From assembly GCA_024256165.1 (NCBI GenBank), contig JAKLZG010000008.1, positions 1 to 48,133 on the forward strand: a stretch of DNA of 48,133 bases, in the 5' to 3' direction. The notes under the pieces are model-generated. The model worked only from the letters and a program-made list of their open reading frames with translations, was not told the origin of the DNA and ran no database searches. Positions 409-25,122 of the stretch are shown piece after piece. The first letter of the stretch is position 1. Each line of letters begins with the position of its first letter. The DNA is from Candidatus Methylarchaceae archaeon HK02M2. GTDB lineage: Archaea; Thermoproteota; Nitrososphaeria; Nitrososphaerales; JACAEJ01. The translations under genes and the position numbers were made by a program.

Positions 409-2196
409 GTGGGGAAATATCTGCAGAAGGACCCTAAGTCAAATATTACTAGTAAGTATCATGCTCTTTTCACTCTTCCATCGATTAAGACAGCGGTTCT
501 TTTAGCTTTTATCGCATCTGCTACATTATTCATTTCTTCACATTTTTTACTATACGAAATCAACGCATTTACATTCATAATTCTTTTTGCTTTTGAAGCA
601 GTACTTTTTACATCTATTTTATTCGAAAAGACAATCTTGAGGGACAATCCATTGGTGACCTTTAGAAGGCTTATTGTTTTCTCATCCATATCTAACTCTA
701 TATGGGTTTCAATCATCTTTTTAGGTCTCATATTTTCCATACCTTTCTCGATCCATTTTGAGAAATATGTCTTCTTTTTACTTTTAGGCTTCTTTTGCGT
801 TATGGCTTTCAGGATGTTGGTATCAGTTTCTATCTTTTATGGGAGTATGCTGAGGAGAATTTTTAGTGCATTTTTTCAACCTATATTATTATCACTTATA
901 CTGCTTCTTTTTCCGATCATTCAAATAACCACCAACTACATAATCATTGCTTTAGTTGGGGCAGGAATCGTAACCTTAGTTATAATCTATCTAATCATAG
1001 TTGATCGATCAGGTGCCAAATTAATTGGAGTGGGTTCATTGAAACTTTTTCGTGCATTTCTTACAGCATGGGCCGCCAACCACCCTGAATTTATTGAAGA
1101 ATTCATAGAGAAGATGAGTTCTCGGCAAACCGTAAAGACAAATTTAATGATATTTGATAAAGATAGTTCGAAGCCGACTCTGGTAATCCCGGAAGTACAT
1201 CCAGGCCCGTTCTATCCAGTAGGAAGTAGCAACTTACCTCTTTACCTCAGAAATTGGTTTTTAGATGAAGGCTTATCGCCCCTAATTCTTCATGGTGTTT
1301 CCGGCCATGAACTAAACCTTCCTTCCAGAGTGGAAGTAGATAACTACATTTCAACTTTTGAGGGCTTTAAAACTATAGCTACGAGACAGACCTGCAGTTC
1401 ACCTGTATTTGCCAAGTTGGGTAAAGCGACAGTTACATGTATAGCATTTGGAGATTTAGTATTTGTAATGCCAACTTTATCTCCTTTTGGGATGGAGGAT
1501 TTGCCGTTGGGTATAAAGCATAAGGTAGAAACTTTGGCTTTAAAATCGGGTTATAATTACGTTATGATAGTTGATACGCATAATTCGCAAGGAGAGCTCA
1601 TCAGCGACGAAGATTATGAAGACCTTATCAAAGCTATTAAGAACGCCTTGACCCATTTAAAGTCTAGCGATCAATACGATTTGATGGTTGGTTCTGCCCA
1701 CTCTTCAGAGTTCGATATTCGTTTAGGGAATGATATAGGACCTGCCGGACTCGGCGTTCTCATTTTAAATATTGACGATAAGAAGTATAGCATAATAGTC
1801 TCTGATTCAAATAATGCAATTCCAGGTCTGAGAGAGGAGTTAATCAAAAATTTCAAAGATTCAGAAGCCCCAGTTTTAGAGTTATGTACTTCTGATACAC
1901 ATGTCACAGCTGGCAAGATATCCGATTTAAAGGGTTACATCGCTTTAGGAGAAAGGACAGGATTAGATGAGTTATCAGCAGCTATAAAGATACTTATCAA
2001 TAAAGCAGTAGAGCGTATATCCAGAGCCGAATTAAAGGTTAGGAGTGTGAATTCCTCGGTAAAGGTTATTGGCACAAAACTTATCGACGATCTATCGATT
2101 GTTCTAGATAGATCTTTCTACGTAGTTAAAAAAGGCGGTATCGTTATAATAACGATTTCTTTTTTTATCCTTCTTTTAACTGCAATAATTACTTAA
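409..2196 (+). CDS. DUF2070 family membrane protein
   Basis: A 595-residue protein. The first about 200 residues hold roughly six or seven hydrophobic membrane segments. A soluble domain of about 370 residues follows, then one final membrane helix (about 574-594). The soluble domain has conserved His/Asp motifs typical of archaeal DUF2070: PEVHPGPFYPVGSSN, HGVSGHELNLPS, IVDTHNSQGE and CTSDTH. The histidine- and aspartate-rich motifs look like a metal site and suggest a hydrolase, but no function is established. The start used is a GTG directly after secG; a CTG at 421 preceded by GGTGGGG cannot be excluded. Coupling to secG hints at a link with membrane protein biogenesis. Confidence 0.8.
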   Translation: MGKYLQKDPKSNITSKYHALFTLPSIKTAVLLAFIASATLFISSHFLLYEINAFTFIILFAFEAVLFTSILFEKTILRDNPLVTFRRLIVFSSISNSIWVSIIFLGLIFSIPFSIHFEKYVFFLLLGFFCVMAFRMLVSVSIFYGSMLRRIFSAFFQPILLSLILLLFPIIQITTNYIIIALVGAGIVTLVIIYLIIVDRSGAKLIGVGSLKLFRAFLTAWAANHPEFIEEFIEKMSSRQTVKTNLMIFDKDSSKPTLVIPEVHPGPFYPVGSSNLPLYLRNWFLDEGLSPLILHGVSGHELNLPSRVEVDNYISTFEGFKTIATRQTCSSPVFAKLGKATVTCIAFGDLVFVMPTLSPFGMEDLPLGIKHKVETLALKSGYNYVMIVDTHNSQGELISDEDYEDLIKAIKNALTHLKSSDQYDLMVGSAHSSEFDIRLGNDIGPAGLGVLILNIDDKKYSIIVSDSNNAIPGLREELIKNFKDSEAPVLELCTSDTHVTAGKISDLKGYIALGERTGLDELSAAIKILINKAVERISRAELKVRSVNSSVKVIGTKLIDDLSIVLDRSFYVVKKGGIVIITISFFILLLTAIIT

Positions 2197-24736: not shown

Positions 24737-24749
24737 CTAACCAGGTTAG
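24737..24749. repeat. Short palindrome next to tRNA-Asp 3' end
   Basis: CTAACC-A-GGTTAG is symmetric around one base and touches the discriminator base of tRNA-Asp. In RNA it would form a 5-bp hairpin with a three-base loop, a possible processing or termination element. Its GTTAG also occurs in the D-loop of the tRNA. Confidence 0.4.
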
Positions 24750-24851
24750 CGCCCTTCGGCAAGGGTATCTTTTTCTCCCTTTTGGCCGGGATTTGAACCC
24801 GGGTCGGAGCGGTGACAGCGCCCCATACTAACCGGACTATACTACCAGGGC
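24750..24851 (-). tRNA. tRNA-Asp(GTC) with an intron in the 3' acceptor strand
   Basis: Reading the minus strand: acceptor GCCCTGG, D arm GTAT/GTAT with wobble pairs, anticodon stem GGGCG/CGCTC around loop CTGTCAC (anticodon GTC), variable loop CGAC, T arm CCGGG-TTCAAAT-CCCGG. After the T arm only CCA of the expected CCAGGGC is present. The remaining GGGC and the discriminator G come 28 bases later. Removing bases 24755-24782 restores a perfect 7-bp acceptor and a standard 74-nt tRNA. No CCA is encoded. The intron is at about position 68/69, far from the usual 37/38 site, so splicing must precede or accompany 3' maturation. Identity is certain; the exact splice points can shift by a base. Confidence 0.93.
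24755..24782 (-). other. 28-nt intron of tRNA-Asp
   Basis: The insert lies between tRNA positions 68 and 69. Inside it AAGGG and CCCTT pair in a 5-bp helix with an A-rich loop, which would bring the two splice sites together as in a bulge-helix-bulge target of the archaeal tRNA endonuclease. The adenine at each junction makes the cut ambiguous by one base. Confidence 0.8.
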
Positions 24852-24974
24852 AACTATTATGTTATATGGCTAGTAACCATTCCAGTTAAAAATTTTTCCT
24901 TTAAAGCTTCTATCTACCTCTTTCTAATCTCTCAAGCTAAGATTATATCTCTACTCTAAATCTTACTGAAAAGC

Positions 24975-25014: not shown

Positions 25015-25122
25015 GGGCCCGTAGCTCAGTCAGGTAGAGCACCGGGCTTTTAATTAAAAAAGAAGCCACCCGGAAGGAGTTTTCCTGGGGATGGGTCCCG
25101 GGTCCGAATCCCGGCGGGCCCG
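25015..25122 (+). tRNA. tRNA-Lys(TTT) with one or two introns
   Basis: Acceptor GGGCCCG pairs perfectly with CGGGCCC (25115-25121); the D arm is GCTC/GAGC. The anticodon stem starts CCGGG (25042-25046), followed by loop CTTTTAA with anticodon TTT at 25049-25051. The T arm is CCGGG-TCCGAAT-CCCGG. The gene is 108 nt, about 33 more than a mature tRNA. A 15-nt insert after the loop (about 25054-25068) is the canonical 37/38 intron and leads to CCCGG (25069-25073), closing the anticodon stem. Between that stem and the T arm are 24 nt instead of about 5, containing the hairpin AGGA-GTTT-TCCT, so a second intron of about 19 nt in the variable region is likely. Exact junctions are not settled. Confidence 0.9.

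Follow-up and report, generated by a model that had tools for sequence, protein, structure and literature searches.

How can a transfer RNA (tRNA) be produced from a gene whose acceptor stem is broken by inserted sequence? This question is raised by a tRNA-Asp(GUC) gene in a 48,133-nucleotide stretch of DNA from Candidatus Methylarchaceae archaeon HK02M2 (the window, contig C8 of genome G000). The genome is a metagenome-assembled genome (MAG) of the order Nitrososphaerales, 1.34 Mb in 91 contigs and 96.3% complete. The rpoB protein shares 88% identity with its counterpart in Candidatus Methylarchaceae archaeon HK01M, which is a putative methyl-reducing methanogen found in mangrove sediment (PMC9478090). 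The gene occupies 24851-24750 on the minus strand, as do all its parts described below. Read in gene order, exon 1 (GCCCTGG...CCCGGCCA, positions 1-68 of the tRNA, 24783-24851, with anticodon loop CTGTCAC) is followed by a 28-nt insert (AAAGGGAGAAAAAGATACCCTTGCCGAA, 24782-24755) between positions 68 and 69, and then by exon 2 (GGGC G, 24750-24754). Removal of the insert allows G1C2C3C4U5G6G7 to pair with C66C67A68G69G70G71C72 in a 7-bp acceptor stem, leaving G73 as the discriminator base. The original prediction, made from the letters of the DNA alone, had described just such a split acceptor strand resuming after 28 bases, and the sequence confirms it. An Rfam cmscan match (40.3 bits) extends from 24847 to 24783 and is confined to model positions 5-66 of 71, in line with an interrupted acceptor. 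ARAGORN in bacterial mode reported zero tRNAs in the window, which reflects a limit of the tool and is not evidence against the tRNA.

The junction forms a canonical bulge-helix-bulge (BHB), the structure recognised in archaeal tRNA splicing. Its 4-bp central helix pairs exon CGGC (positions 63-66, 24785-24788), made up of the T-stem 3′ strand and C66, with intron GCCG (24757-24760). Two opposite 3-nt bulges, CA^A and AA^G, place the cuts in register. Within the intron, AAGGG (24777-24781) pairs with CCCUU (24765-24761) in an inner stem that closes an 11-nt loop and shows compensatory changes in relatives, and the BHB is present in the minimum free energy structure of the gene alone. On sequence alone the insert boundary could be moved one base leftward, but only the 68/69 boundary gives a canonical BHB cut. 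A central helix built from the intron 5′ bases and exon 2 was rejected, as AAGG and GGCG do not pair; the arrangement that fits is one in which exon-1 bases preceding the 5′ cut pair with intron bases preceding the 3′ cut. To estimate how often such a motif arises by chance, we generated 400,000 random downstream sequences with the window's base composition and looked for GGGCG within 18-60 nt. An acceptor-restoring GGGCG was found in 0.8%, one accompanied by GCCG in register at a rate of 7.5e-6, and one with a 5-bp inner helix as well in 0 of 400,000, which puts the chance rate of the complete motif under about 2.5e-6 per gene. These comparisons support reading the insert as an archaeal BHB intron that interrupts the 3′ strand of the acceptor stem at 68/69. 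The earlier proposal of an archaeal intron in this strand is thus borne out by canonical BHBs at both junctions and by relatives that keep the position with compensatory changes.

Introns of this general kind are well known. A survey of 217 archaeal genomes lists 673 noncanonical BHB tRNA introns, 107 of them in Thaumarchaeota (PMC8450103). The window's gene resembles those cases in its short intron, junction BHB, two-subunit EndA splicing endonuclease and single-copy tRNA gene, and differs from them in its 68/69 site, in drawing its central helix from the T-stem 3′ strand, and in having a conserved trailer that complements the T arm. The site is not the canonical 37/38, which is not required of the noncanonical class. 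Acceptor-stem introns are mentioned in PMC12397907. The text of the review PMC4090602 names position 3/4 but not 68/69, and we make no claim that 68/69 is unreported. Both exons belong to the same transcript unit in normal order, 28 nt apart, so the gene is neither a split nor a permuted tRNA. In split, trans-spliced tRNAs, for example tRNA-Asp in Aeropyrum pernix and in Thermosphaera (PMC3218864), the splice structure is likewise formed by pairing of sequences that are not part of the mature tRNA; in the window's gene, by contrast, the outside sequence is a 3′ trailer that pairs with an exon.

The position of the central helix has a structural consequence. Since it uses bases 63-65 together with C66, the T stem must open, and T stem and splice structure are mutually exclusive. 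The tRNA body that the original prediction described as complete would not stand intact beside the BHB.

We then looked for other introns at this site, using a pattern that required a T arm followed by GGGCG within 14-44 nt and also demanded CC; isotypes other than tRNA-Asp are under-sampled because of these requirements. Three matches were obtained in 400 genomes of the order, of which two were real, the window's gene and one in another family (G010). The third, in G045, proved to be a tRNA-Asp whose acceptor is uninterrupted and is followed downstream by a GGGCG that arose by chance. A search of 398 genomes of the phylum, filtered for the BHB, yielded further cases in families f25 (confined to genus g74, 6 genomes), f62 and f55 (6 of 9 genomes), and a class-wide search added families f72, f53, f80, f40, f70 and f87. 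Of those phylum and class matches whose intron was not complementary to positions 63-66, most were likewise set aside as due to chance. In total, the phylum yielded 23 genes with a BHB at 68/69, in 11 families that for the most part belong to other orders. Twenty-two of them have a tRNA-Asp anticodon loop; the 5′ part of the remaining one, in G758, was not located. One gene additional to the 23 (L238 in G864) can be read as a tRNA-Met(CAU) that is interrupted by an intron at the same position, 68/69 (CGCC:GGCG, CC^A, AT^C). The 68/69 site is thus commoner than the original prediction, which described acceptor-stem introns as rare, had implied.

Some of these genes are interrupted elsewhere as well. 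The tRNA-Asp of f55 (L157, L184-L188) apparently has four introns, at 4/5, in the D arm, in the variable region and at 68/69, the D-arm and variable-region junctions being putative; the maximum given for an archaeal tRNA is three (PMC8450103). The f55 intron at 4/5, in the 5′ acceptor strand, has a central helix GTGC:GCAT and bulges CC^A and AA^A, and together with that at 68/69 it would cut both acceptor strands at the same step. The 5′ acceptor strand is also seemingly interrupted near 5/6 in G504 (L177) and G585 (L156). Other members of the order have tRNA-Asp introns in the T loop (L044, L054, L055) or the D arm (L033, L034, L050, L051, L056), so this isotype has been interrupted repeatedly. 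The complete tRNA-Asp gene of G449 (L183) is directly preceded by a partial duplicate of its 5′ end.

Inspection of the flanks of the 68/69-intron genes revealed a second feature, a stretch following G73 that is complementary to the T-arm 5′ strand, the strand left without a partner when the BHB forms. The hypothesis was recorded before testing. We computed the duplex energy between the T-arm 5′ region and 40 nt of trailer. Fifteen intron genes gave a mean of -19.3 kcal/mol (range -24.1 to -10.1), against a mean of -6.0 and a minimum of -11.7 for 35 tRNA-Asp controls without a 68/69 intron (p = 3e-4 by family). The controls were drawn from the same order and from that to which f25 belongs, and included intronless f25 genera and genes with D-arm introns. 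As the first set had suggested the idea, genes found later provide the fair test, and all eight of these carried a trailer match (-15.3 to -24.4). The trailer of the Met-like gene is likewise complementary to its own T arm (-17.6). In f25, f40 and f70 precursors the trailer helix spans 12-14 bp. Trailer complementarity was present in all 11 intron families, and tRNA-Asp genes lacking the intron did not show it, those of other f25 genera included.

Covariation was examined in 17 distinct homologous sequences, with pairing partners slid out of register as controls. Paired cells amounted to 96.0%, compared with 27-53% for the slid partners, and 33 cells were changed on both sides, compared with 0-3. 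Pairing in the BHB central helix (63-66) was invariant in all 17, with one compensated pair type, at 65. Families differ in the T-stem pair 49:65, some having C:G and others G:C, and wherever the pair is flipped, the intron base opposite 65 and the trailer base opposite 49 are flipped as well, in every sequence. The trailer segment was picked as the best match, which biases toward pairing. Two results, the independent gene set and the flip at 49, argue against this choice as the sole cause of the trailer pairing.

In the window's gene the trailer AACCTGG (24741-24747), a candidate splicing helper, is complementary to CCGGGTT (24802-24796), comprising the T-stem 5′ strand and the first T-loop bases, and the two are paired in the minimum free energy structure of the precursor (AACCUGG:CCGGGUU, 7 bp, -10.1 kcal/mol). 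The modelled probability of the BHB helix was 0.72 with the native trailer and 0.55 without it, and was lower in 60 of 60 shuffled trailers. With and without native trailer the corresponding values were 0.58 and 0.04 for G010, and 0.90 and 0.06 for G585. A general rule by which the modelled BHB probability would rise with every trailer was rejected, the effect being clear for these three genes and mixed for f25 and f55.

The genome encodes the enzymes that such a precursor would need, namely two EndA paralogues and the ligase RtcB. One EndA, of 208 aa, has the triad Tyr145, His153 and Lys184; the other, of 179 aa, lacks the His and Lys. The best matches of the EndA proteins in the Protein Data Bank are 2cv8, 3p1z, 3ajv and 2zyz, the 208-aa protein being closest to solved splicing endonucleases, for example 2cv8, 3p1z and 2zyz. 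One catalytic and one non-catalytic subunit, as judged from these residues, fits the alpha2beta2 type of EndA, which PMC4090602 attributes to Thaumarchaeota and Crenarchaeota and associates with noncanonical introns. The genes for the non-catalytic subunit and RtcB lie within about 3 kb on contig C25 (4493-7560).

We propose that the precursor would first fold as a rod, in which intron GCCG pairs with C63-C66, and AAGGG with CCCUU within the intron. The T-stem 5′ strand, having lost its partner, would be held by the 3′ trailer, which would lengthen the outer side of the BHB, a part that exon sequence cannot supply at that end of the molecule. Two-subunit EndA would then cut after A68 and before G69, inside the two 3-nt bulges, and RtcB would join the exons. 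The T stem and acceptor could then form, to be followed by end maturation and charging. We consider it very probable that this is a working tRNA-Asp(GUC) gene with a 28-nt BHB intron at 68/69, spliced by EndA and RtcB from a trailer-assisted precursor fold that afterwards refolds. What we infer is that the gene is transcribed and its precursor cut, in which order it matures, and that the trailer acts as a helper, the last of these being weakest in the window's own gene.

The locus has a different history in relatives of the same genus. The flanks are syntenic with those of G001 and G002, and the syntenic locus of G002 has tRNA-Lys head to head and the same upstream block. There, positions 1-36 of the old tRNA-Asp are followed by a complete intronless tRNA-Asp of the GCCTCGG type and then by the old intron and 3′ exon (AAAAGGGGGAAACTTCCTTGCCGAAGGGCG; L043, near 1336-1640, minus strand); decayed forms occur in L042 and L038. 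The old trailer survives in G002 as a fossil (AACCCGG, -12.4), and persistence of the 68/69 intron in this broken copy indicates that the intron predates the split of G000 and G002. Remnants of the old 5′ end ahead of the same new gene are shorter in G001 and G003, marginal in G004, and not above chance in G006. Within the genus the intact old gene was found in G000 alone, possibly retained there through recombination or transfer. The arrangement in G002 recalls the tRNA-Thr disruption model of Caldiarchaeum (PMC3293823), with a 5′ tRNA fragment adjoining a complete copy of the same tRNA. It differs in that the complete copy is nested within the old gene; the insertion amounts to only about 0.2 kb, no recombinase was recognised, and this is not the state of the window's own gene.

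Several observations weigh against the proposed pathway. The trailer helix of the window's gene is short, contains one G-U pair and is not significant alone (shuffle p 0.13); among 28 other tRNAs in this genome, 2 reach a trailer energy as low, and the trailer can instead form a 5-bp hairpin of its own. In f25 and f55 the modelled BHB is not consistently favoured by the trailer. It is thus possible, though we think it distinctly the less likely case, that the insert is removed as a BHB intron while the trailer complementarity serves some other role, in transcription end or 3′-end protection, or is incidental in the window's gene. Such an account has to contend with the presence of the trailer in all families with the intron and its absence from tRNA-Asp genes that lack it, with its recurrence in every gene found later, and with the base opposite position 49 that tracks the flip of 49:65.

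Transcription and splicing of the gene are predicted from its sequence, the MAG is 3.7% incomplete, and in relatives of the same genus the locus is occupied by a different tRNA-Asp that has no intron. The gene might accordingly be a decaying pseudogene, an uninterrupted tRNA-Asp absent from the assembly doing the work, as in G001 and G002, where the GCCTCGG-type gene is in use and the old gene is broken. We regard this as very improbable: the tRNA body, BHB and upstream block are intact in the window, whereas the old gene decays in relatives having the new one, and introns at 68/69 elsewhere are preserved with compensatory changes. A second, uninterrupted tRNA-Asp, which the original prediction had named as the observation that would count against it, was not found in the 96%-complete MAG with either the window-type gene or the relatives' GCCTCGG-type gene as query. 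Chance resemblance or misassembly of the 91-contig metagenome assembly is scarcely credible, given the low chance rate of the full motif, the same intron in independent assemblies and the syntenic flanks. The trailer-assisted splicing pathway is therefore the reading that we retain for this gene.

An A/T-rich block upstream of the gene (AAAGGAAAAATTTTTAACTGG, 24867-24911, minus strand) is conserved at the syntenic place in G001 (91% identity over 45 nt) and is a probable promoter. A tRNA-Lys(TTT) gene at 25015-25122 on the plus strand, apparently with two introns (37/38 and variable region), lies head to head with the tRNA-Asp gene, an arrangement also kept in G001 and G002.

Noncanonical BHB introns being already known, what is new here is that 68/69-intron genes have a 3′ trailer whose sequence complements the 5′ strand of the T arm; no description of such pairing was found in the papers covered. 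We think it somewhat probable that 68/69 introns define a class of precursor with two exclusive folds, in which trailer and intron hold the 5′ strand of the T arm and the 3′ strand of the T stem, respectively, before splicing and the cloverleaf forms afterwards, the trailer acting as a splicing helper that is conserved across 11 families and two tRNA types (Asp and, in one case, Met-like). If so, the question arises why tRNA-Asp is interrupted at one site in many lineages, through descent or through repeated site-specific gain. The flank signature could be used to find missing tRNAs in archaeal genomes, and the RNA refolding step would be open to test. The 3′ trailer, usually regarded as waste, would be part of the splice substrate for acceptor-stem introns, which would account for the formation of a BHB from strands that belong to the T stem.
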